Source: Halobaculum gomorrense
Lineage (GTDB): Archaea; Halobacteriota; Halobacteria; Halobacteriales; Haloferacaceae
Direction of reading: 5' to 3'
DNA length: 64,000 nucleotides
NCBI RefSeq assembly: GCF_900129775.1
Contig: NZ_FQWV01000004.1
Coordinates: forward strand, 62,001 to 126,000
The notes beneath the pieces are model-generated. The model was not told the DNA's origin and ran no database searches. It saw nothing but the letters and a program-made list of their open reading frames with translations. The position numbers were made by a program, and so were the translations under genes. Positions 1-43,812 of this stretch are shown in pieces; position 1 is the stretch's first letter; every line of letters starts with the position of its first letter.

Positions 1-374
1 CGACCGCCTCGCCAGCCGATCTCGACGCCGGCGCCGTCGGAGAGTGGCTCGCCGCCTCGCTCGCGGACACCGAGTTCGCCTACGGATTCGACGCGACGCT
101 GTCGCTCGACGGCCGGACGGCGCGCCACCGGATGGCCTCCGACGACGTGGGCGAGACGTTCGAGACGCTCGTCACCTGGTTCGCGGACGCCGCCGGCGGC
201 GACACGGCTCCGGAGGACGCGCTCGGTATCCTTCTGGCCGGAATGGACACCGCGCCGCGGCTCCCGCCCGACGCCGTCCGGTCGGCGCTGGCGGGGCTGG
301 GCGTCTCCCGCGACGACTCCGTCGATGACGTGTTGGCGGCGCTCGACGAGGTCGGCGGACTCCGACTGGAGTGA
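1..374 (+). CDS. 3' end of an unrecognised haloarchaeal protein (partial)
   Basis: The reading frame is open from base 3 of the window to a TGA at 372-374, so only the C-terminal 123 residues are visible. The sequence is acidic and looks globular: an AVGEWLAASL-type helix, a strand-rich part (FAYGFDATLSLDGRTARHRM), then helices with an EDALGILLAGMD segment. There are no membrane spans, cysteines or catalytic motifs that I can recognise. It resembles a small haloarchaeal family that I recall as DUF7500, but that is memory and not a search. It lies about 100 bp upstream of cheY, which has its own promoter, so it is probably a separate transcript. The function is unknown. Confidence 0.6.
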   Translation, partial: TASPADLDAGAVGEWLAASLADTEFAYGFDATLSLDGRTARHRMASDDVGETFETLVTWFADAAGGDTAPEDALGILLAGMDTAPRLPPDAVRSALAGLGVSRDDSVDDVLAALDEVGGLRLE

Positions 375-444
375 GCGGTCCGGCCGACCGCGGCTCGAGC
401 ATCCATCCGCCGCAGTTTTCACTGCTGATAGGCACGGGAATGCG

Positions 445-473
445 TTTATTATCGCCGCCGAGGCGATATCGCC
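445..473 (+). promoter_or_regulatory. cheY promoter: TATA-like box and a 12-bp palindrome at the start site
   Basis: TTTATTA at 445-451 is an archaeal TATA-like element centred about 28 nt before the cheY ATG at 477, which predicts a nearly leaderless mRNA. The perfect palindrome GGCGATATCGCC (462-473) covers the expected transcription start, a position where a bound repressor would block initiation. The operator role is inference. Confidence 0.5.
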
Positions 474-476
474 TAT

Positions 477-839
477 ATGCCGACCAGCGTGCTGATCGCG
501 GACGACTCGGAGTTCATGCGGAACCTCCTGCGGGAGATCCTCGAGGGCGAGTTCGAGATCATCGGCGAGGCCGAGAACGGCGTGGAGGCGGTCGACCTCT
601 ACGGCGAACACGCCCCCGACATCGTGATGATGGACATCGTCATGCCGATCCGCAACGGGATCGAGGCGACCACCGAGATCACGGAGGAGCACCCCGACGC
701 GAGCGTCATCATGTGCACCAGCGTCGGGCAGGAGGAGAAGATGAAGGCCGCGATCAAGGCGGGCGCCGAGGGGTACATCACGAAACCGTTCCAGAAGCCG
801 AACGTGCTCGAAGCTATCAACGACGTCGTCCCCGCGTAG
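477..839 (+). CDS. cheY: Chemotaxis response regulator CheY
   Basis: A 120-residue single receiver domain, the normal CheY length. All phosphorylation-site residues are present: acidic pair D9/D10, phospho-acceptor D53 (in IVMMDIVMP), T81 (MCTSVG) and K103 (YITKPF). CheA phosphorylates CheY, and in archaea CheY-P signals to the archaellum through CheF rather than FliM. The gene heads a + strand run: cheC starts 2 nt after its stop and cheD follows, then the arl operon. That makes it the response regulator for the motor encoded next door. The start is set by the TATA box 28 nt upstream. Identification is secure from the motifs and context. Confidence 0.96.
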   Translation: MPTSVLIADDSEFMRNLLREILEGEFEIIGEAENGVEAVDLYGEHAPDIVMMDIVMPIRNGIEATTEITEEHPDASVIMCTSVGQEEKMKAAIKAGAEGYITKPFQKPNVLEAINDVVPA

Positions 840-841
840 GG

Positions 842-2041
842 ATGTACGTCGACATCCAGTCGCTGGGGGAGTTCTCCGATCTCGCGAGTCAGGGAGCGGA
901 TCGGGCGGCCGACGCGCTCGGGCAGCTCGCCGGCGCGAACGTCTACGTCGACGTGACCGACGTGACGCTGATGGCCGCCGGCGACCTCCGGGAAGCGTTC
1001 GCCGGACGGGAGTTCGTGGGCGTCGAGATCGGACTACGCGGGGGGATCGCCGGGCAGACCGTGATGGCGTTCGAGCTGGAGGCCGCCGAGAGTCTGGTCG
1101 AACGATTACTGCCCGGCGGTGGCGACGGAGAACTCGTTCGAAGCGGCGTCACCGAGGCGGGTAACATCATGACCTCGGGATTCATCGACGGCTGGGCCGA
1201 CCACCTCGGCGTCGCAATCGACATGACGCCGCCGGCGTACGTCCGCGCGTCGGGGACGGACATCCTCCCCGACGGCACCTTCGACGACGACCGACAGGGC
1301 GTGTTCATGTTCGAGTCGCAGGTCTCCTCGATGGACGAGGACCTCGAGTTCACGATCTACATGCTTCCCGAGTACGCCGGCTTCACGGAGATGCTCGGCC
1401 ACGACGGCCCCGTCGGCGATACCGGCGACGCGGTCCCGGTGAACAAGCTGCCGACGTTCAACCGGATGACCGAGCAGGGTGCCGCCGCCGCCGCCGACAA
1501 CATCACCATGATGACCGGTACGGAGACGGACGTGGATGTCTCGCGGCTCCGGTTCGTGCCGGTACAGGACGTGCCCGCCGAACTGGGCACCGAGACCGTC
1601 GCGGGGACGGTGTTCGAACTGCACGGCGACCCGAGCGGCTACCTCGCCATCCTCTTCGACGAGGCGTCCGCCGAGGAGGTCGCCGGCGGGATGATCCCCA
1701 CGGAGACCGAGCCGGGGATCGGCGACATGGAGAAGGGCGCGCTGCGGGAACTCGGCAACATCATGACATCGGGGTTCATCGACGGCTGGGCGAACGTGCT
1801 CGACACGAGCATCGAGCACACCCCGCCGCAGTTCGTCCACGACATGGGCTCGGCGGTGATGAGCCCGCTCGTGAGCCGGCTCGGGCAGACGCAGGACCAC
1901 GCGTTCATCATCGACTCGACGGTCCGCACCCCCGACGGCAACGTCCGATGCGACATCTACGCCCTCCCCGACCAGCGCGAACTGGCCGCGGCGCTGGACC
2001 GCATCGAACCCGCGGCGACCGACGGCGGATCGCTCCGGTGA
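842..2041 (+). CDS. cheC: CheC-type phosphatase, tandem two-domain form
   Basis: 399 residues, about twice the length of a bacterial CheC, made of two CheC domains. Each half carries one intact CheC/CheX/FliY motif (E-x2-N plus a downstream Pro): E105/N108 followed by TPP near 129-131, and E303/N306 followed by a matching TPP. Both motifs sit in the same sequence, GNIMTSGFIDGWA, showing internal duplication. The first motif expected in each half (near residues 15-20 and 211-214) lacks the E/N pair, so only one active site per half looks functional. The predicted role is dephosphorylation of CheY-P and/or regulation of CheD. The ATG at 842 is 2 nt after cheY's stop, so translation is probably coupled. 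Archaeal genomes often have several CheC paralogues (for example the CheJ type), and this is the long type. Confidence 0.88.
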   Translation: MYVDIQSLGEFSDLASQGADRAADALGQLAGANVYVDVTDVTLMAAGDLREAFAGREFVGVEIGLRGGIAGQTVMAFELEAAESLVERLLPGGGDGELVRSGVTEAGNIMTSGFIDGWADHLGVAIDMTPPAYVRASGTDILPDGTFDDDRQGVFMFESQVSSMDEDLEFTIYMLPEYAGFTEMLGHDGPVGDTGDAVPVNKLPTFNRMTEQGAAAAADNITMMTGTETDVDVSRLRFVPVQDVPAELGTETVAGTVFELHGDPSGYLAILFDEASAEEVAGGMIPTETEPGIGDMEKGALRELGNIMTSGFIDGWANVLDTSIEHTPPQFVHDMGSAVMSPLVSRLGQTQDHAFIIDSTVRTPDGNVRCDIYALPDQRELAAALDRIEPAATDGGSLR

Positions 2042-2048
2042 GCCGCTC

Positions 2049-2594
2049 GTGAGCCCAACCGACTCGTCGAACGCGGGTGCGCCGCCCGCGCAGCAGGCCC
2101 CCGACCCCGACCGGTCTGCCCCGCGGCGGAAGGTCGCGCTCTCGGACGCGGCGGTGGCGGCCGACGGCGCCGTGTTGGTCACCAGCGGGCTCGGCTCCTG
2201 TCTCGGCATCGCGCTCCACGATCCGACCGCCGGCGTCGGTGGACTGTTACACGCGATGCTCCCGGCCGCCGAGGGGCGTCCGGGCGCGCCCGAGAAGTTC
2301 GTCGTCGACGGTATCGACGCGACCGTCGCCGCGATGGCAGACGCCGGCGCCGATCCGGACGGGCTCCGCGCGAAGATCGCCGGCGCCGCCAAGATGATCG
2401 AGTTCAACGCCGGCGGCTCGGACGGCTCGGTCGGCGACCGCAACGTCGCCGCCGCGGAGGCCGCGCTGCGCGACCGCGGGATCCCCGTCGTCGACACCGA
2501 CACCGGCGGCGACCGCGGGCGGTCCCTCCGGTTCGATACGGCCACGGGGTGTCTGCACGTCTCGTACGCCGGCGGCGACACGATCGTGGTATAG
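2049..2594 (+). CDS. cheD: Chemoreceptor glutamine deamidase CheD
   Basis: 181 residues starting at a GTG 7 nt after cheC's stop. The CheD catalytic triad is present with the family's spacing: T45, C51 (GLGSCLGIALHD) and H68 (LLHAMLP). CheD converts specific Gln residues of transducers to Glu and in other organisms forms a complex with CheC, which is encoded directly upstream. The first ~27 residues are a Pro/Ala-rich extension without recognisable function. The Cys/His core makes the assignment firm; the N-terminus could be shorter. Confidence 0.92.
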   Translation: MSPTDSSNAGAPPAQQAPDPDRSAPRRKVALSDAAVAADGAVLVTSGLGSCLGIALHDPTAGVGGLLHAMLPAAEGRPGAPEKFVVDGIDATVAAMADAGADPDGLRAKIAGAAKMIEFNAGGSDGSVGDRNVAAAEAALRDRGIPVVDTDTGGDRGRSLRFDTATGCLHVSYAGGDTIVV

Positions 2595-2703
2595 GGCCGA
2601 TCTGCGACGCACCGATTCGGTTCGATTGCACCGGTGTGCGGTTCGCCCTCGCGCCGGCGAGCGGTCGCCGTCCGAGATCGGGGACGAGGCTCGCTGACAA
2701 TCG

Positions 2704-2763
2704 TTATCGGAGACGATAATCCGCGGGATGGGTTTAAGTTTCGTTCGGAGGTGTTCAGGTGTA
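2704..2763 (+). promoter_or_regulatory. arlCE promoter with TTATC-N6-GATAA inverted repeat
   Basis: TTTAAG at 2733-2738 is centred about 28 nt before the ATG at 2764, giving a leaderless arlCE transcript. Upstream lies TTATCG-GAGA-CGATAA (2704-2719), a 6-bp inverted repeat immediately 5' of the BRE/TATA region. The whole stretch from 2704 to the ATG recurs, gap-free, in front of the arlI leader ORF at 6045-6107 (46 of 63 positions identical by eye). This points to a shared regulator of the archaellum operon. No such regulator is identified here. Confidence 0.7.
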
Positions 2764-4227
2764 ATGGGTCTCCTCACCGCGCTACCGGGAGCAGGGGTCG
2801 GCGGGATCCCAGGGGCCGACGCGACACTCCTCGTCTCGTTCGGACTCCTGGGAGCCAGCCTGCTCGATCGCTTCCGCGACGGCGACGACGGGCCCGGGGA
2901 CGTCGACGACGGCGACGGCGACGATCTGCTCGGCGGCGACGACGGCGCCTTCGGCGGCGATGGCGGCGACGGCGGCGACGACGACCTCGGCGACCTCGGC
3001 GGCATGGACGACTGGGACGACGACGACCCCTTCGGCGGAGAGGAGGGCGGCGGCGACGACGGCGTCGCCGAGCTCGAAAAGCGGGTCGACGACCTGGAGA
3101 ACGAAGTCGCGAGCCTCTCATCGACCGTCAACACGGTCCGATCGGAGAACGAGGAGATCTCCGGCAAGGTCGAGGACATGGGGGAAGACGTCCGCAGCCT
3201 CCTCGACATCTACGAGATGGTGACGCGGGGGATCAACCCCTTCGTCGACGACGTGCAGGGGGGCGGCGACTTCGGCGGCGAGGGGGGCTTCGGGCTGTTC
3301 GACGACGCCGGCGACGAGCAAGAAGAAAGCGAGGACGACCTCGACGAGGACCTCGCCAGCGCCGACGCCGAGGGGTTCTTCGACGAGGACCTCGCCGACG
3401 ACGGGATGGACGACCTCGGCGAGATGGACGAGGGCGACGACCTCGACGACGACTTCGGCGACATGGAGGAGATGGACGAGGAGGACGGCTTCGACGACGA
3501 CCTCGACGGCTTCGGGGACGACGACGCGGATGACACCGATTCAGATACCATGGCGACCGACAACGGCGGCGGAAAGAGTTTCAGCGAACTGAAAGACGAG
3601 TACGAGTCGGGCGACGCCGACTGGGACGAGGGTGAGGGGGAGCCGGCAGACGACGGAGCGAGCGATCCGCTCGACGCCCTCGACGCCGAGCCGAAGTCGA
3701 ACGGTCACGACGAGTCCGGTGACCTCGGGATGGGGAGCGAACCCGAACCGGAGCCCGAACCGACGCCGGACTCGACGGCCGGGCCGACGGACCCGAGTCG
3801 ACGCGGCGAGGGGGTCGACGAGAACGGCGGCTTCGAGTTCGTCGAGGAGGACGACCTCTCCGACGAGCCGTCGAAGCCGTATCTCACGAGCCTGCCGGGC
3901 GACTACGTGGGCGACCTGATGGTGATGGAGTGGCTGGAGTTCCTCGTCGAAGAGTCCACCACGACGGACGCGGTGCGGGCGATCAACTACTACGAGCGCG
4001 TCGAGTGGATCGACGAGGGAGTCGCGGACCAGCTCAAGGGGTTCCTCTCGGGCTTCGGCGACATCGACCGGAACCTGATGGACCGCCCCGGCACCGACCA
4101 CCTCGAGTTGGACCACCATACGCGCTCGCTCAAGTACATCATGCAGTTGACCGACGCCACGGCCGAATCGGTCGTCATCGACCGGTGGCCGCAGCTCTCG
4201 GGGGGCATGCATGGGCTTCAGCGTTAG
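2764..4227 (+). CDS. arlCE: Archaellum switch protein ArlCE (FlaC-FlaE fusion)
   Basis: 487 residues from the leaderless ATG at 2764; an ATG 12 codons earlier lies upstream of the TATA-predicted transcript start and is rejected. Order: short N-terminal part with a hydrophobic stretch (LLVSFGLLGASLL), Asp/Gly-rich linker, coiled-coil FlaC-like region (VAELEKRVDDLENEV near 100 onward), a very long acidic linker rich in D/E repeats, and a C-terminal FlaD/E domain (KPYLTSLPGDYVGDLMVMEW; VRAINYYERVEWI). In halophiles ArlC and ArlE are fused, and the protein is part of the cytoplasmic motor ring that receives the CheF/CheY signal. No separate arlD is seen in the operon. The extreme acidity is typical of haloarchaea but marked even so. 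Its end overlaps arlF by 17 nt. Confidence 0.93.
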   Translation: MGLLTALPGAGVGGIPGADATLLVSFGLLGASLLDRFRDGDDGPGDVDDGDGDDLLGGDDGAFGGDGGDGGDDDLGDLGGMDDWDDDDPFGGEEGGGDDGVAELEKRVDDLENEVASLSSTVNTVRSENEEISGKVEDMGEDVRSLLDIYEMVTRGINPFVDDVQGGGDFGGEGGFGLFDDAGDEQEESEDDLDEDLASADAEGFFDEDLADDGMDDLGEMDEGDDLDDDFGDMEEMDEEDGFDDDLDGFGDDDADDTDSDTMATDNGGGKSFSELKDEYESGDADWDEGEGEPADDGASDPLDALDAEPKSNGHDESGDLGMGSEPEPEPEPTPDSTAGPTDPSRRGEGVDENGGFEFVEEDDLSDEPSKPYLTSLPGDYVGDLMVMEWLEFLVEESTTTDAVRAINYYERVEWIDEGVADQLKGFLSGFGDIDRNLMDRPGTDHLELDHHTRSLKYIMQLTDATAESVVIDRWPQLSGGMHGLQR

Positions 4228-4645
4228 CGCCTCCGCAGGGGTCGTCTTCCTCGGCGTGTTCCTCGCGATCGGCATCGTCTATCCCGCCGCGGCCAACGGC
4301 TTCGAGCGGGTGAGCGACGCGCGCCACGACGCCGCCGACCGCGCGCTCGCGCAGGCGAACACCGGAGTCACCGTGACGAACGCGACGTACAACGACTCGA
4401 CGGACACCCTCATCGTGAACGCCACCAACGACGGCACCACGGCCGTCGACGTGAGCGATGCGGGCCTGTTCGCCGACAACAACCTGACGGCGCCGTCGGT
4501 CACCGTCGCTGGCGACGGCGGGACCGACGTGTGGCTCCCCGGCGAGACCGCCCACTTCGAGGTGTCGCTGTCGACGGCGCCCGACCGGGTCCAGGTCGTC
4601 GTCGACCACGGGGTCCGCGACGCGAGCGCGGTGGAGGTGATCTGA
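4211..4645 (+). CDS. arlF: Archaellum stator protein ArlF
   Basis: 144 residues. An N-terminal membrane anchor (VVFLGVFLAIGIVYPAA, about residues 10-27) is followed by an exported beta-sandwich with Asn/Thr-rich N-glycosylation-like sequons (NATYNDSTD, NATND). ArlF and ArlG form a complex outside the membrane that ties the rotating archaellum to the S-layer. The ATG lies inside the end of arlCE (17-nt overlap) and the stop abuts the GTG of arlG, so the three genes are tightly coupled. Confidence 0.92.
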   Translation: MGFSVSASAGVVFLGVFLAIGIVYPAAANGFERVSDARHDAADRALAQANTGVTVTNATYNDSTDTLIVNATNDGTTAVDVSDAGLFADNNLTAPSVTVAGDGGTDVWLPGETAHFEVSLSTAPDRVQVVVDHGVRDASAVEVI

Positions 4646-5098
4646 GTGGCGGGCGGGAGCGCCGCCGAACTGATCCTGTTCATCGCGGCCATCGTCATCG
4701 CGGCGTCGGTCGCGGGGACGCTCACCAGCGAGGTCGACCGCGTCAGCGACGCCATCTCGGCGAAGTCGCTCGACGTGTCCGCCGAGATCCGCGCCGACGC
4801 GGAGATCGTCTCTGATCCGGGCGCGCCCGTGTACAACCGCTCAGGCGACGAGAACGTCACGATCCACGTCCGCAACACGGGTGTATCGGATCTCCCAGCG
4901 GAGTCCGGGACGTTCGACGTCCTCCTCGACGGCGAGTACCAGACCGACCTCACCGTCTCGGTCGTCGACGGCGGCGACACCTGGCACCGCGGCGACGTGG
5001 TCAAACTGGAGTTCGCCGCCCCCGACCTCCCCGCCGGCGACCACCGGCTGAAGCTGGTCGTCCGCGGGGACGAGGAAGTGTTCCGATTCAGAACCTGA
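4646..5098 (+). CDS. arlG: Archaellum stator protein ArlG
   Basis: 150 residues from a GTG directly after arlF's stop. An N-terminal hydrophobic helix (LILFIAAIVIAASVAGTL, about 10-27) is followed by a beta-sandwich with the family's VTIHVRNTG and DGGDTWHRGDVV segments. It pairs with ArlF as the pseudoperiplasmic stator. The order F-G-H matches other euryarchaeal archaellum operons. Confidence 0.92.
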   Translation: MAGGSAAELILFIAAIVIAASVAGTLTSEVDRVSDAISAKSLDVSAEIRADAEIVSDPGAPVYNRSGDENVTIHVRNTGVSDLPAESGTFDVLLDGEYQTDLTVSVVDGGDTWHRGDVVKLEFAAPDLPAGDHRLKLVVRGDEEVFRFRT

Positions 5099-5116
5099 GC
5101 CCCACCACACCGCACG

Positions 5117-5169
5117 CCCCTCACGACCACCCACCCCTCACAAGTCACCCCTTACGATCCACCCCTCAC
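5117..5169 (+). repeat. Four phased CCCCTCAC motifs just before arlH
   Basis: CCCCTCAC occurs at 5117-5124, 5134-5141 and 5162-5169, with CCCCTTAC at 5148-5155, spaced 17, 14 and 14 nt. The last copy ends one base before the arlH ATG. The 72-nt arlG-arlH spacer is nearly pure C/A/T on the coding strand and has no Shine-Dalgarno sequence, so arlH cannot use ordinary SD initiation. The function is unknown. Confidence 0.7.
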
Positions 5170-5170
5170 A

Positions 5171-5929
5171 ATGTCACGAGCACAACAGAACACGCTGCTG
5201 TCGATCGGCTTGCCCGAGCGCGACCAACTGAACAAGGAACTCGGCGGGGGGATCCCCCGCGGCTCCATCGTCCTCATGGAGGGGGACTACGGCGCCGGGA
5301 AGTCCGCGCTGTCCCAGCGGTTCGCGTACGGCCTCGTCGACGAGGGCGCGTCCGTCACGCTGCTGTCGACCGAGTTGACCGTCTCCGGGTTCATCGACCA
5401 GATGTACTCGCTGGGGTACGACGTGACCAAGCCCCTGCTCAACGAGGAGCTCCTCTTTCTCGCGGCGGACTTCGACTCCGGTGGGAACTTCTCCGACACC
5501 GACGCCGAGCGCAAGGAGCTGCTCAAGCTCCTGATGGAGGCGGAGACGATGTGGAACTCCGACGTGATCATCCTCGACACGTTCGACTCCATCCTCCGCA
5601 ACGACCCCACCTTTGAGGCGCTCGTCCGCAACAACGACGAGCGGCAGGCCGCCCTCGAGATCATCTCCTTCTTCCGCGACATGATCTCCAGCGGCAAGGT
5701 GATCGTGCTCACCGTCGACCCCTCCGCGGTCGGCGACGACGCGATCGGTCCCTTCCGCTCCATCGCCGACGTGTTCTTCGAACTGCAGATGGTCGAGGTC
5801 GGCTCCGACGTGCGCCGGAACATCGCGGTGAAGCGCTTCGCCGGGATGGGGAGCCAGGTCGGCGACTCGATCGGCTTCTCGGTGCGCTCGGGAACCGGGA
5901 TCGTCATCGAGTCACGCAGCGTCGCCTGA
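5171..5929 (+). CDS. arlH: Archaellum motor regulator ATPase ArlH (KaiC-like)
   Basis: 252 residues. RecA/KaiC fold with Walker A GDYGAGKS (38-45) and Walker B VIILD (132-136), followed by TFDS. ArlH binds ATP, sits inside the ArlC/D/E ring and interacts with the ArlI hexamer, and its nucleotide state is thought to control motor assembly and switching. The length is usual for the family. The gene is preceded by a C-rich spacer with phased repeats rather than a ribosome-binding site, and followed by 264 nt carrying a second promoter for arlI. Confidence 0.95.
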   Translation: MSRAQQNTLLSIGLPERDQLNKELGGGIPRGSIVLMEGDYGAGKSALSQRFAYGLVDEGASVTLLSTELTVSGFIDQMYSLGYDVTKPLLNEELLFLAADFDSGGNFSDTDAERKELLKLLMEAETMWNSDVIILDTFDSILRNDPTFEALVRNNDERQAALEIISFFRDMISSGKVIVLTVDPSAVGDDAIGPFRSIADVFFELQMVEVGSDVRRNIAVKRFAGMGSQVGDSIGFSVRSGTGIVIESRSVA

Positions 5930-6044
5930 GGGAGCGCTGTCCGGATGGCTGCTGCCTGACCGGTCGTCGTGCGAGCGGCTGTCGCCCGAGTGGCCGTCGC
6001 CGCCAGCGGACGAGTTCTTGGGCGTTTGCATACACCGCGCGGTG

Positions 6045-6104
6045 TTATCGGTGGTGATAGCTCGCGGGTAGGGTTTAAGCCTCGTTCGCGGGTGTGTCGT
6101 CGTA
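6045..6104 (+). promoter_or_regulatory. Internal arl promoter upstream of arlI, copy of the arlCE promoter module
   Basis: The TATA-like TTTAAG at 6074-6079 and the inverted repeat TTATC-N6-GATAG at 6045-6060 have exactly the spacing of the arlCE promoter (offset 3341 nt throughout). The predicted transcript start (~6103) coincides with the ATG at 6105 of a 30-codon ORF. This implies arlI and arlJ can be transcribed separately from arlCE-H, with the same regulator. Confidence 0.65.
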
Positions 6105-6197
6105 ATGAGCTTCACCCTCGTCGGGAGCCGGGGGCGCGGTGCCGTCACGTCCGACGACGGACGCCGGCCGTCGCCGGCACGGAGGTGTATTCGATGA
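6105..6197 (+). CDS. 30-codon leader ORF overlapping the arlI start (ATGA)
   Basis: The ATG lies at the predicted leaderless start of the internal arl promoter. The frame encodes 30 residues (MSFTLVGSRG...) and ends in TGA at 6195-6197, sharing ATGA with the arlI ATG at 6194. A strong Shine-Dalgarno, GGAGGTG at 6181-6187, sits inside the ORF 6 nt before the arlI ATG. The peptide is Arg/Gly-rich and resembles nothing I know, so the act of translating it may matter more than the product. The arrangement looks like translational coupling: a leaderless 70S start first, then SD-driven reinitiation. A chance ORF is possible given the GC content, but position and overlap argue for use. Confidence 0.5.
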   Translation: MSFTLVGSRGRGAVTSDDGRRPSPARRCIR

Positions 6198-7861
6198 CAG
6201 ACCAAGGACAGGCGAATCCCTCGAGCGAGCTGAAGCAGCTGGCCATGAAGCGGCCGCACCTGCGCGAGCACCTACAGAAGTTCAAACAGATCACCGGCGA
6301 GTTCCCGATGTTCGTCGACGAGATCGAGGGGGAGCACGAGGCCCGCCGCCCGAACGTGCTGTACCCCGTCGGCGGTCCCATCTTCTGTCACGTGTACGGT
6401 GACTTCGGGCAGGACACGAAGTACTACACCGTCGAACCGACGCTGTCGGGCGCCGAGGAAGACGTGCTCGACACGGTGAAATCGAAGCTGCTGCGCCAGA
6501 GCGGCCACAAGCCCGCGCCGGAAGGCGAGTCGGGATACGACGACCTGATCGAGGAGCTGTTGGAGGAGGTCACCGCCGTCACCGAAGAGCAGGGACAGCG
6601 AAACGTCCTCTCGTCGATCAAGAACTTCGGGCGCGTGGAGGTGTCGAAGCAGACGTACGACAACATCCGCTACCGGCTCAACCGCGACATCGTCGGCTTC
6701 GGCCCGCTGGAGCCGGTCATGCGCGACCCGGAGAATGAGGACATCCACGTCATCGGCCCGAAGGAGTGCCACGTCGACCACGGCGTCTTCGGCATGCTGG
6801 AGACGACCGTCGACTTCGGGACGCCGACGGAGTTCGACAACTGGCTGCGCAACATGGGCGAGCGGATGGGCGACCCCGTCTCCGACTCCAACCCGATCAT
6901 CGACTCGACGCTGCCGGACGGCTCGCGTATCAACATCATCTACTCCGATGACGTGTCGATCAAGGGCTCCTCGCTCACGATCCGTCAGGGCGAGGAGACG
7001 CCCCTCTCGATCAACCAGATCACGAAGTGGGGGACGCTCAGCCCCGAACTGGCGGCGTATCTCTGGCTGTGCCTGGAGAACGAGCAGACCGTCTTCGTCG
7101 TCGGCGAGACGGCGTCCGGGAAGACGACGACGCTCAACGCTATCCTCTCGTACATCCCGCGGGACTCGAAGATCTACACCGCGGAGGACACCGCGGAGGT
7201 CGTCCCCCCGCACAGCACGTGGCAGCAGCTCCTGACCCGCGAGGGCGACGGTGGCGACTCCAACGACGTGGACATGTTCGATCTCGTCGCGGCGGCGCTG
7301 CGCTCGCGCCCCGACTACATCATTGTGGGGGAGGTTCGTGGCGCCGAGGGCCGCATGGCCTTCCAGGCGGCCCAGACCGGGCACCCGGTGATGCTGACGT
7401 TCCACGCCTCCGACATCGTCTCCATGATCCAGCGGTTCACCTCCGAGCCGATCAACGTCCCGGAGACGTTCATGGACGTGGCCGACGTGGCGCTGTTCCA
7501 GAACCGTGTCAAGCAGGGCGATAAGGTCCTGCGTCGGGTCACCTCCGTCCAGGAGATCGAGGGGTACTCCAAGGAGATGGACGGCGTCGTCACCCGACAG
7601 GTGTTCGACTGGGACCCCGTCGAAGACGAGATCGTCTTTCGCGGGCGCAACAACTCTTACGTGCTCGAAGAGCAGATCGCGACGCTGCTGGGCTACGCCG
7701 ACACCCGCGACATCTACGACGACCTGAGCTTCCGCGCGGAGCTCATCGAGCGGATGATCCAGGAGGGTATCCTCGGCTATCACGAGGTGAACGAGGCGAT
7801 CACCTCCTTCCAGCGCGACGGCGTCGACGGGCTTCCATTCGACATGCACCGCACGACCTGA
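6194..7861 (+). CDS. arlI: Archaellum assembly and rotation ATPase ArlI
   Basis: 555 residues. Type II/IV secretion ATPase of the PilT/GspE superfamily: Walker A GETASGKTTT, an acidic Walker B region after ALRSRPDYIIVGEVRGAEG, then a His box (AQTGHPVMLTFHA). ArlI is the hexameric ATPase that powers both assembly and rotation with the membrane platform ArlJ. The ATG at 6194 is chosen because of the Shine-Dalgarno GGAGGTG 6 nt upstream and because the protein begins as expected (MTDQGQANPSSELKQ); in-frame codons further upstream are Arg-rich and non-coding in character. arlJ starts 9 nt after the stop. Confidence 0.95.
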   Translation: MTDQGQANPSSELKQLAMKRPHLREHLQKFKQITGEFPMFVDEIEGEHEARRPNVLYPVGGPIFCHVYGDFGQDTKYYTVEPTLSGAEEDVLDTVKSKLLRQSGHKPAPEGESGYDDLIEELLEEVTAVTEEQGQRNVLSSIKNFGRVEVSKQTYDNIRYRLNRDIVGFGPLEPVMRDPENEDIHVIGPKECHVDHGVFGMLETTVDFGTPTEFDNWLRNMGERMGDPVSDSNPIIDSTLPDGSRINIIYSDDVSIKGSSLTIRQGEETPLSINQITKWGTLSPELAAYLWLCLENEQTVFVVGETASGKTTTLNAILSYIPRDSKIYTAEDTAEVVPPHSTWQQLLTREGDGGDSNDVDMFDLVAAALRSRPDYIIVGEVRGAEGRMAFQAAQTGHPVMLTFHASDIVSMIQRFTSEPINVPETFMDVADVALFQNRVKQGDKVLRRVTSVQEIEGYSKEMDGVVTRQVFDWDPVEDEIVFRGRNNSYVLEEQIATLLGYADTRDIYDDLSFRAELIERMIQEGILGYHEVNEAITSFQRDGVDGLPFDMHRTT

Positions 7862-7870
7862 CCCGCCTCC

Positions 7871-9619
7871 ATGAGTGCGAACAGCGCGTCCGCGTCCGAC
7901 TTCTTCCCCGACTCCGCAGCGGAGCTTGCCGCCGATCTGGTGGCGTCGTACGACGCGCTGGACATGTCCAAGCGGACGTACGTCGGCTACATCCTCGGGC
8001 CGTCGACGGCGTTCTTCTTGCTCACGATTGTCGGCGCGTTCCTGCTGCCGCTGCCGCTGACGGTCCGTCTTCCGATCCCGGCGCTCGGGATTCTGGTGTT
8101 TGTCGCGGCCGTCTTCTACCCGAAACTGTACCTCAACGGCCGGCAGGTCGCCATCGAGAACCAACTCCACCTGGTGATGACGCACATGACCGTCTTGTCG
8201 ACGACGAACATCGACCGCATGGAAGTGTTCCGGACGCTCGCGGTCGAGGAGGAGTACGGCGCCGCCGCCGACGAGCTCGGCCGGGTCGTCCACCTCGTCG
8301 ACACGTGGAACCAGTCGCTCGACGACGCGCTGCGTCGACGAGCGAAGGAGGTTCCGTCCGACGTGTTCTCGGACTTCTTCGACCGGCTCGGCTACACCAT
8401 CGGCGCCGGCCAGACGCTCGACGACTTCCTGCTGTCCGAGCAGGACGCGGTCATCCAGAACTACATCACGGTGTACGAGGGGGCGCTGGCGAACCTGGAG
8501 GTCATGAAGGACCTCTACATGTCGATGATCCTCTCGATGACGTTCGCGCTCGTGTTCGCCATCGTGCTCCCGATCCTCACCGGCGACAACCCGACGCTCA
8601 CCGTCTCGGCAGTCATCGTCCTGTTCATGCTGGTCCAGTTGGGCTTCTACGTCGTCATCCGGGCGATGGCCCCCCACGACCCCGTCTGGTTCCACTCCGA
8701 GGAGGGGGCGCCCTCGGACTTCCGGCTGTGGGGCAGTTTCGCCGTCGGCGTCGCCGGCACTACCGGGCTCGTGATATTCGTCGGCGCCGGGCTCTTCGGG
8801 GTCGGCCCGGGGCTGCGCGGCCTGCTCTTTTTCCTGGAGGACATTCCGCTCGCGATGTACATCTGCGTCCCCATCTCACCGATGGCCATCACCGGGGTGA
8901 TGCTCCGGTTCGAGGAGCGCAACATTGAGGAGCGCGACAAGGAGTTCCCCTCGTTCGTCCGCGCGCTCGGCGCCGCGGAGTCCGCGAAGCAGTCGACGAC
9001 CGGCGACGTGCTGGCGACGCTCCATAAGAAGGACTTCGGCGCGCTCACCCCCGCAATCGTCCGGCTGTACCGGCGGCTCAACATCAGGATCAGCTCCGAG
9101 CAGGCGTGGTACACCTTCGCGACCGACACGCGGTCGTACCTCATCCAGAAGTTCTCCGACATGTACCTCGAGGGGCGCTCGATGGGCGGTCGGCCGAAGC
9201 TGCTCGGCGAGCTCATCTCCCAGAACATGAACACCGTCATGCAGCTCCGCGAGCAGCGCCGGCAAGCGACGGTGACGATGATCGGGCTGCTGTACGGGAT
9301 CACCTCCGCGTCGGCGTTCGCGTTCTTCATCGGCCTCCAGGTCGTCAACATCCTCGCGGACCTGTCCCAGCAGTTCAACATCACCAACGCCGGTGGCGTC
9401 GGCAAGGTCATCTACGCCGGGGTGTACGACATCGCGCTGATCGAGTTCCTCCTCCTGCTCGTCATCCTGTTCAACGCCGTGCTCTCGTCGGTGATGATCC
9501 GCACGATCGACGGCGGCAACAAGGCGAACGCCTACCTGCACTTTGTGCTCATGACGTGGCTCGGGTCGGGCGTGGCCATCTTCACGAAGCACCTCGTCAG
9601 CGCGATCCTCACGATCTGA
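7871..9619 (+). CDS. arlJ: Archaellum membrane platform protein ArlJ
   Basis: 582 residues, a polytopic membrane protein of the TadC/GspF type. There are two N-terminal spans (about 45-95), a cytoplasmic basic/acidic domain, two spans around 215-255, further spans near 300-345, a second long cytoplasmic domain (LRFEERNIEERDKEFPSF onward) and three C-terminal spans. ArlJ anchors the motor and works with the ArlI hexamer. It is the last gene of the arl run; no archaellin gene follows, so filament subunits are encoded elsewhere. Confidence 0.95.
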   Translation: MSANSASASDFFPDSAAELAADLVASYDALDMSKRTYVGYILGPSTAFFLLTIVGAFLLPLPLTVRLPIPALGILVFVAAVFYPKLYLNGRQVAIENQLHLVMTHMTVLSTTNIDRMEVFRTLAVEEEYGAAADELGRVVHLVDTWNQSLDDALRRRAKEVPSDVFSDFFDRLGYTIGAGQTLDDFLLSEQDAVIQNYITVYEGALANLEVMKDLYMSMILSMTFALVFAIVLPILTGDNPTLTVSAVIVLFMLVQLGFYVVIRAMAPHDPVWFHSEEGAPSDFRLWGSFAVGVAGTTGLVIFVGAGLFGVGPGLRGLLFFLEDIPLAMYICVPISPMAITGVMLRFEERNIEERDKEFPSFVRALGAAESAKQSTTGDVLATLHKKDFGALTPAIVRLYRRLNIRISSEQAWYTFATDTRSYLIQKFSDMYLEGRSMGGRPKLLGELISQNMNTVMQLREQRRQATVTMIGLLYGITSASAFAFFIGLQVVNILADLSQQFNITNAGGVGKVIYAGVYDIALIEFLLLLVILFNAVLSSVMIRTIDGGNKANAYLHFVLMTWLGSGVAIFTKHLVSAILTI

Positions 9620-10013
9620 GTTCGGGTCGCCCGCGGACACGGTCGCACTCGACGGCCGCCCGTGGCCGCGTCCTTGCCACCCCGGCGATCGCCGTCGCTC
9701 TCGCCGCTGATACGCTACGCCAAACCGGTATCTCCCTCCGTTGCGGAGTCGTCGTTTAGCCGCGGTCGCGGAGATGCGGGAGTCGACCGCCGTCTGGTCG
9801 CGGCGAAGCCGTGGGGAGGGGCCTGGCGTTCGACGTGCAGACCCCGAATTCGAACATCCCGGTTCGGGGCGCCCGAGCGACATTCTCGGCGGTACTGTTC
9901 ACACGCGGTCGATGGGGCCTGTCAGAACGCCCCACGCGGTCGCGACCGCCCGTCGAGACGCGGGGCCGCACCGCGGACGCTGCGGTGCCGCCGCTCGTCG
10001 TCCGAGCGCGTGC
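9620..10013. other. Gene-free convergent intergenic region
   Basis: About 390 bp between arlJ (+) and the transporter gene (-). The open frames here are Arg/Pro-rich on both strands and have no plausible start signals. The only structure I see is a weak inverted repeat, CCCCGAA (9842-9848) with TTCGGGG (9863-9869). I see no RNA gene. Confidence 0.5.
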
Positions 10014-22313: not shown

Positions 22314-22451
22314 GTTTTTACGGCACCGTGAATCACGCTTAACGATTGCTGTCAGATAATCACGAGCGATAGCTGGATACTGCCCGTACCCTCGTTCGGT
22401 ATCGCGTTCGACGCGTCACCCTCAAACGCGCGGGGCCCTCATCCTCCCGCG

Positions 22452-31642: not shown

Positions 31643-31747
31643 CGTTGTCCATCGTCGCCCAGCGACGGGCATAACTGTTCGGTGTCGGCCGATCGATGCG
31701 TCGCGTGCCGCGGCCTCACTCCGGTTGACCGCGCCCGTCTCACGGGT

Positions 31748-32083
31748 CGCTGCGCTCGCACCTCGCCCTGCTCACGGCTCCCCCCGGTCGCCGTTCGCTT
31801 TCGAGGTGCTCGCTGCGCTCGCACCTCGCCCTGCTCACGGCTCCCCCCGGTCGCCGTTCGCTTTCGAGGTGCTCGCTGCGCTCGCACCTCGCCCTGCTCA
31901 CGGCTCCCCCCGGTCGCCGTTCGCTTTCGAGGTGCTCGCTGCGCTCGCACCTCGCCCTGCTCACGGCTCCCCCCGGTCGCCGTTCGCTTTCGAGGTGCTC
32001 GCTGCGCTCGCACCTCGCCCTGCTCACGGCTCCCCCCGGTCGCCGTTCGCTTTCGAGGTGCTCGCTGCGCTCGCACCTCGCCC
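31748..32083. repeat. Perfect 63-bp tandem repeat array (5.3 copies)
   Basis: Five complete 63-bp units (31748-31810, 31811-31873, 31874-31936, 31937-31999, 32000-32062) plus 21 bp, apparently identical. Each junction forms a hairpin with 8-bp arms CGAGGTGC/GCACCTCG and an 11-nt loop (first at 31802-31828). Because 63 is a multiple of 3, several frames on both strands stay open with a 21-residue period; these are not genes. There are no unique spacers, so this is not CRISPR. It lies between the ACT regulator (-) and a zinc-finger gene (+), where their promoters should be. Confidence 0.95.
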
Positions 32084-42563: not shown

Positions 42564-43672
42564 GAATGCTCACCCGTGATGCCCGCGGCGATGTCGCCCA
42601 GCGGGAGCACCGAGTCGACCGCGCCGGTCGCGGCGGCGCGCTTCGGCATCCCGTACACCACGCAGGACTCCTCGTCTTGCGCGAGCACGCGGGCGCCGAT
42701 CCGCGAGAGCGCCTGCACGCCGTCGCTCCCGTCGCCCCCCATCCCGGTGAGGATCACGCCGATCAGCGGGTCGTCGACCACGTCGGCGGCCGACCGCATC
42801 GTGACGTTCACCGACGGGCGCACGCCCTCCCCGCGCTCCTCGTCGATCACCGTCAGCCGGAGGCGGCCGTTTCGCGCGTTCGTGATCTCCAGGTGGTGAC
42901 CGCCCTTCGCGACCGCGAGTTCGCCGCGTCCCAGGCGCATTCCGTCCTCGGCCTCCCGCACCGACAGCTCGCAGGCGTCGTCGAGGCGGGTCGCGAACCG
43001 CCCGGTGAACGCCTCGGGCATGTGCTGGACGACGACGCCGCGGAGGTCGGCCTCGCCGGGGAGCGCGGAGACGACCCGCTCGACCGCGTCCGGTCCGCCG
43101 GTCGAGGAGCCGATGATGAGCGTCGTGTTCGGCTCGATGTCGGCCCCGGTCGCGCCCCCGGAGGGGCTCGCCGGGTCCGACGCGCTCGTCGACGCCGGCG
43201 TCGCGCCGCCGGCGCTCGCGGCCGCTGCGGCCGCGTCGCTCCGGCGGCGACGCCCCGCCGTTGAGAGGTCGGCCCCGGCGACCGACCGGACGGTCTCCAC
43301 GAGCTGCTCTTCCATCCGGGAGACGCCCATCGACACCTCGCCGCCGGGCTTGGCGAAGAAGTCGACCGCGCCGGCGTCCAGCGCCGCGAACGTCTCCTCG
43401 GCGCCCTCGGCGGTGTACGCCGATAGCATCAGCGTCGGCGTGGGGTTCTCGGCCATCAGCCGCTCGACGGCTTCGATCCCGTTCATCTCGGGCATCTCCA
43501 CGTCCATCGTCACCACGTCGGGGTCGACCTCGGCGACGACCGACAGCGCCTCGCGGCCGTCCCCGGCCTCGCCGACGACCTCCACGCCGCCGGACTCCAG
43601 GATGTCCGCGATGAGTCCCCGCATGAACCGCGAATCGTCAACCACGACCGTCCGCGGCACCCGCGCGCTCAC
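42560..43672 (-). CDS. cheB: Chemotaxis methylesterase CheB
   Basis: 370 residues from a GTG. Receiver domain with D57 (VVTMDVEMP), a ~50-residue Ala/Ser linker, and a methylesterase domain with catalytic S190 (GSSTGG), H217 (VVQHMPE) and D314 (TGMGGDG). Removes methyl groups and deamidates transducers when phosphorylated by CheA. First large gene of the - strand taxis operon. Its GTG overlaps the TGA of a 13-codon leader ORF (see separate entry) and a G-rich SD-like stretch precedes it. Divergent from cheW. Confidence 0.95.
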   Translation of the reverse strand: MSARVPRTVVVDDSRFMRGLIADILESGGVEVVGEAGDGREALSVVAEVDPDVVTMDVEMPEMNGIEAVERLMAENPTPTLMLSAYTAEGAEETFAALDAGAVDFFAKPGGEVSMGVSRMEEQLVETVRSVAGADLSTAGRRRRSDAAAAAASAGGATPASTSASDPASPSGGATGADIEPNTTLIIGSSTGGPDAVERVVSALPGEADLRGVVVQHMPEAFTGRFATRLDDACELSVREAEDGMRLGRGELAVAKGGHHLEITNARNGRLRLTVIDEERGEGVRPSVNVTMRSAADVVDDPLIGVILTGMGGDGSDGVQALSRIGARVLAQDEESCVVYGMPKRAAATGAVDSVLPLGDIAAGITGEHS

Positions 43673-43710
43673 GGCGCACCCCCAGCCGGCCGTGCGGCGT
43701 CTCGAATCAT
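43669..43710 (-). CDS. 13-codon leaderless ORF overlapping the cheB start
   Basis: ATG at 43710 lies about 26 nt from a TATA-like TTCAATAA (complement near 43736), so it sits at the predicted transcript start. It encodes MIRDAARPAGGAP and stops at TGA (43671-43669), sharing GTGA with the cheB GTG at 43672. A G-rich stretch just before the GTG resembles a Shine-Dalgarno. This is the same design as the arlI leader ORF. The peptide itself is unremarkable, so a coupling role is inferred. Confidence 0.45.
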   Translation of the reverse strand: MIRDAARPAGGAP

Positions 43711-43781
43711 GTCCTTGCTTACCGATACGCCGTTATTGAACTCACCGTCCCGAATTTCATGGCTGATAGCTCGTGCGCTAC

Positions 43782-43812
43782 GGTTAAGCGAGCGGATCCT
43801 GGGATCGGATGT
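43782..43812 (+). promoter_or_regulatory. cheW promoter
   Basis: GGTTAAG within 43782-43788 is centred 27 nt before the ATG at 43813, giving a leaderless cheW mRNA and ruling out the in-frame ATG at 43759. The cheB TATA-like box lies ~50 bp away on the other strand, so the two promoters are separate but close enough for shared control. Confidence 0.6.

Follow-up and report, generated by a model that had tools for sequence, protein, structure and literature searches.

The window, that is, the whole 64,000-nt stretch of DNA analysed here (positions 62001-126000 of contig 11, C11, of a 3.2-Mb genome), carries part of a cluster in which a KaiC-like gene is followed by a csmR candidate on the opposite strand, two archaellin genes, further genes, cheY, a cheC-like and a cheD-like gene, arlCE, arlF, arlG, arlH, arlI and arlJ; the names arlF, arlG, arlJ, cheC and cheD are those that we presume from position and general knowledge. 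The gene for the archaellum motor ATPase, arlI (6194-7861, + strand), matches NCBIfam NF058587 with an E-value of 5e-271 (900 bits, the cut-off being 550) and is 98-99% identical to its counterparts in Halobaculum saliterrae and H. litoreum, which points to a Halobaculum as the bearer of this genome. The gene arlCE (2764-4227, +) opens with a leaderless-type ATG located 27 nt past the TTTA of a TATA box (TTTAAG, 2733-2738, +), a distance that is conserved in relatives. This box lies exactly 14 nt past the palindrome TATCGGAGACGATA (2705-2718, +), which matches the motif TATCA(N4)TGATA reported for the regulator CsmR (PMC13286277). A similar arrangement precedes arlI, with the palindrome TATCGGTGGTGATA (6046-6059, +), a copy specific to Halobaculum, and 14 nt further on the box TTTAAG (6074-6079, +). 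The first ATG past this promoter (6105) opens a leaderless-type leader ORF of 30 codons (6105-6197, +), whose TGA overlaps the ATG of arlI (ATGA), and a Shine-Dalgarno-like sequence, GGAGGTG (6181-6187, +), conserved in the genus, precedes the arlI ATG. Another CsmR module, with one mismatch, was located at 417-448 (+) before cheY (ATG 477).

The gap-free likeness of the two 63-nt promoter blocks put forward in the preliminary description was recounted and holds, with 46 of 63 positions identical between 2704-2766 and 6045-6107, and TTATC-N6-GATA, CGCGGG, GGGTTTAAG and TCGTTCG are indeed present in both. The binomial probability of at least 46 matches is 3.5e-13 per pair and about 7e-4 across all same-strand window pairs, i.e. 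a chance expectation below 0.001. When every same-strand pair of 63-nt segments in the window was compared, pairs reaching at least 46/63 turned up at 14 offsets, among which the arlCE and arlI promoters are the sole non-coding pair; the others involve a 63-bp tandem repeat with exact copies, parts of arlCE that are rich in D/G, the cheC region and further stretches that seem to be repeated or paralogous coding DNA. TTATC-N6-GATA itself occurs in the window only at these two promoters, which share 30 of 47 positions outside the motif, compared with a mean of 14.2 and a maximum of 25 for 324 other site pairs. The spacing from TATA box to ATG is in both cases compatible with leaderless or near-leaderless starts, as had been proposed. 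In the flanks, local alignment over 60 nt upstream and over 90 nt downstream scored no higher than shuffled sequence, and no structured-RNA match to Rfam was found within positions 1-10000. The tandem repeat (31747-32083) consists of 5.3 exact copies with 100% identity and no indels, and several reading frames remain open throughout it.

CsmR was described in June 2026 as a regulator of archaellum and cell shape in Haloferax volcanii, in which it is HVO_1209, a 13-kDa winged-helix protein whose gene adjoins the archaellins (PMC13286277). According to the same source, 50 of 65 ChIP-seq peaks, that of the arl operon among them, contain the semi-palindrome TATCA(N4)TGATA, the motif adjoins BRE/TATA in the promoters of H. 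volcanii, and deletion of csmR raises archaellum transcripts yet abolishes motility. The TATC-N6-GATA repeats upstream of arlCE and arlI agree with this motif in core, length and position. The TATC/GATA core is exact in both palindromes and the inner A/T positions differ in part, the operators here reading TATCG...CGATA or TATCG...TGATA compared with the published TATCA...TGATA. A csmR candidate is encoded at C11:59904-59563, between the KaiC-like gene and the archaellins and divergent from the archaellin gene; its product of 113 aa matches HTH_20 (E 6e-8) and has no relative in the PDB by sequence. Size, winged-helix fold family and gene neighbourhood agree in making it a candidate ortholog of HVO_1209. 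The KaiC-like gene (L010:14750-15502), convergent with the csmR candidate, is a CirA candidate with a marginal match to GvpD_P-loop. Between csmR and the first archaellin there are two CsmR-type palindromes (L010:15991-16032, corresponding to C11:59991-60032), 28 nt apart, of which the proximal one alone keeps the 14-nt register.

Throughout the 3.2 Mb the exact pattern TATC-N6-GATA-N14-TTTA occurs three times, always in the archaellum cluster, before an archaellin gene (C11:60019), arlCE (64705) and arlI (68046); with cheY, at one mismatch, four promoters of the cluster place the palindrome exactly 14 nt from TTTA. Allowing up to two mismatches there are 59 modules genome-wide versus 19 for the reversed pattern, and a refined consensus gives 17 versus 1 for the control. 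Genes at start-codon distance past the looser sites include cetZ tubulin, a second archaellin locus, histidine kinases of 7TM and of GAF type, pilins, a MinD-like ATPase, chemoreceptor-like proteins and cheB, although a single site with two mismatches carries little weight, as chance would account for about a third of them. Among those in the window are a module with two mismatches at 22340-22371 (-), before a PAS-containing chemoreceptor-like gene (22313-20541), and a palindrome at 43755-43768, common to the divergent pair formed by cheB (-, GTG 43672) and a cheW-like gene (+, ATG 43813). The latter palindrome has a TATA-like box 14 nt off on either side (43737-43786 in all) and, read in either direction, departs from the core pattern at two positions. 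Past the cheB-side box there is a 13-codon leaderless-type ORF, MIRDAARPAGGAP (43669-43711, -), whose stop overlaps the GTG of cheB in an arrangement resembling that of the arlI leader ORF. The predicted regulon thus covers archaellum, chemotaxis and cell-shape genes (archaellin, arlCE, arlI, cheY, cheW/cheB, chemoreceptor-like genes and cetZ). A dedicated regulator confined to two arl units, as envisaged in the preliminary description, is not what we find, since the module is also present at cheY, cheW/cheB, chemoreceptor, cetZ, pilin and sensor-kinase genes.

The exact module was found 186 times in 146 genomes of the same order, as opposed to 10 times for the reversed control, a roughly 19-fold excess. 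When the gap between palindrome and TATA was left free, from 6 to 24, a gap of exactly 14 accounted for 60 of the 150 matches listed and every other gap for at most nine, which places the centre of the palindrome 21 bp, or two helical turns, from the TATA box. With no more than 2 mismatches in 12, the module before arlCE is present in 63 of 79 named loci, the ATG lying nearly always 27-28 nt past the box; Halorubrum shows a TCTCA variant. The two promoters might resemble each other merely as strong haloarchaeal BRE/TATA core promoters in which the inverted repeat is incidental, and their likeness does lie partly within the BRE/TATA region, leaderless genes being numerous in haloarchaea (PMC4983044). 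However, a palindrome kept at fixed spacing across haloarchaea, in such excess over the control and tied to csmR, renders this explanation extremely improbable.

The tie to csmR emerges from the distribution of the gene, with a match below E 1e-18 taken as an ortholog. Shared ancestry being ignored in each comparison, the module is present in 84 of 104 genomes with csmR versus 1 of 42 without it, in 65 of 80 versus 0 of 11 among genomes possessing arlI (Fisher p 1.6e-7), and in 19 of 24 versus 1 of 31 among those lacking arlI. As the association is seen in both groups, it is not merely a link with motility. One genome in which arlI is not detectable (G007; L187, L188) retains a csmR-like gene, and its cheY and a chemoreceptor-like gene both carry exact modules. 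The repeat could also be bound by another winged-helix regulator, a paralogue of csmR, instead of the CsmR encoded beside the archaellins; most genomes do contain weaker paralogues resembling csmR, this one with three matches (e.g. C8:115605). Against this proposal, which we regard as improbable, genomes in which only weak paralogues occur lack the module in all but 1 of 42 cases, in contrast to its presence in 84 of 104 with a strong match, and the ChIP motif was published for the protein encoded beside the archaellins (PMC13286277). In clade f12 strong csmR matches coexist with almost no exact modules, and its archaellin site (L185, G072) reads TTTCACTGGTGATA with a TTTT box, a looser match; this combination suggests that the operator has drifted in this clade. 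Returning to CsmR itself, the fit to its motif, the preferred gap and the co-occurrence with its gene support, at the level of sequence, the earlier proposal that a dedicated regulator may recognise the repeat just upstream of BRE/TATA.

The copy before arlI has a far narrower distribution. Among 80 named arlI loci the module precedes the gene in only two, both of Halobaculum; it is present in all ten arlI-bearing Halobaculum genomes and absent from all other genomes examined. The spacer between arlH and arlI measures 207 and 263 nt in the two named Halobaculum loci and at most 116 in the other 78. In the nearest sister genus, whose ArlI is 92% identical, modules precede archaellin, cheY and arlCE but not arlI. 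Absence of the module upstream of arlCE/arlI in close relatives had been named as a refuting observation, and the outcome is mixed, the module being conserved at arlCE and present at arlI within the ten archaellated Halobaculum genomes, but absent at arlI in the sister genus; as a general feature the arlI module was not borne out, being specific to Halobaculum. The arlCE copy is probably the ancestral one. In a short alignment with weak internal support the arlI promoters cluster with the Halobaculum arlCE promoters and not with outgroup ones. We favour, from these sequence comparisons, a duplication, in a Halobaculum ancestor, of some 60 bp from the promoter of arlCE; the alternative is convergence under very strong constraint, the flanks being without similarity. 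If it was a duplication, the block was limited to about 60 bp because the flank alignments are not above shuffles, and a duplication reaching into the flanks or the coding start was rejected on the same grounds. Continuing homogenisation of the two promoters was also considered and rejected: identity within a genome (44.9/62) is barely above that between genomes (44.1/62), and such nearly equal values give no clear sign of gene conversion.

A duplicate of this kind may have decayed or be unused, with transcription that starts at the arlCE promoter reading through into arlI. The arlH-arlI spacer contains no T-run of four or more, so that read-through from arlCE into arlI is likely as judged from sequence, and relatives cope without an arlI promoter. 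Nevertheless, operator, TATA box, spacing and start are intact in 10 of 10 archaellated Halobaculum arlI promoters while the flanking sequence differs, and these promoters are as alike among themselves (53.6/62) as the arlCE promoters are (52.3/62), which makes disuse unlikely. As regards the two co-regulated units of the preliminary description, co-regulation of arlI is likely, whereas the proposed splitting of the operon goes beyond what the sequence shows, given the likely read-through. In H. volcanii ArlC to ArlJ are handled as one transcriptional unit, and the mentions of ArlI in the main text of PMC13286277 include no separate arlI promoter. The frame of the leader ORF and its overlap with arlI are kept in nine of ten Halobaculum genomes, even across a 6-nt change in length; in the tenth the ORF stops 6 nt earlier. 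Its variable sites are spread evenly over the codon positions (7, 6 and 8), and among 15 codons that vary the encoded residue differs in 11. We thus rejected a functional peptide, what is conserved being the frame and the overlap, and the arrangement suggests translational coupling of the leader ORF to arlI. Through its own CsmR promoter and coupling leader, Halobaculum might set the amount or phase of ArlI and ArlJ apart from the rest of the archaellum, for example in functions linked to type IV pili; we put this forward as a speculation, and a rather doubtful one.

Thus, we propose, with high confidence in the explanation as a whole, that CsmR-operator promoters are located at arlCE and arlI, the former ancestral and the latter a copy that arose by duplication or convergence, with a handover through the leader ORF. 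A CsmR dimer would bind TATC-N6-GATA and, with the dyad two turns upstream of TATA, may face and contact TFB/TBP. The fixed position of the dyad, which is like that of the site bound by the activator GvpE, points to control of TFB recruitment; the neighbouring KaiC-like CirA homologue is a probable antagonist. The duplicated promoter would give the genes for motor ATPase and platform their own entry into the motility regulon; the arlI transcript would begin with the short leaderless ORF, and ribosomes may be passed on to arlI via the ATGA overlap and the Shine-Dalgarno sequence. As to the sign of the control, the csmR deletion in H. volcanii raises archaellum transcripts though motility is lost, which speaks against plain activation, and we lean only slightly to activation or dual control over plain repression.

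CsmR and its operator are already published. As far as the literature shows, what is new is how widely the module is conserved and how exactly it is spaced, its association with csmR whether or not arlI is present, and the arlI promoter, with leader ORF, that is restricted to Halobaculum. Knowledge of this regulator, until now drawn from a single model species, thereby reaches much of the haloarchaea. The operator-TATA module with its exact spacing can be used for regulon prediction, the presence of the operator being tied to the regulator gene. In Halobaculum nature has provided what looks like a promoter duplicated inside the archaellum operon, and the two sister promoters make the question of activation versus repression by CsmR directly testable.

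Among the closest known systems are the CsmR promoters of H. volcanii, which share the semi-palindrome adjoining BRE/TATA at archaellum promoters and the small winged-helix CsmR beside the archaellins; at the arlCE and arlI sites described here, by contrast, the inner positions are occupied by G/C or G/T, and there is the additional site before arlI. The upstream activating sequence of GvpE at gas-vesicle promoters is likewise formed by two half-sites 4 nt apart directly upstream of BRE, at a distance to BRE that is critical, with back-to-back promoters whose sites overlap and with a P-loop ATPase antagonist, GvpD (PMC4390858), the probable counterpart here being the KaiC-type CirA-like protein. 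GvpE itself is an unrelated, leucine-zipper-like activator and not a winged helix, and its site has another sequence. The fla promoters controlled by EarA in Methanococcus and Pyrococcus also depend on a regulator that is dedicated to the archaellum and binds upstream of the promoter, but according to PMC13286277 EarA has no similarity to CsmR in sequence or structure and is absent from haloarchaea.
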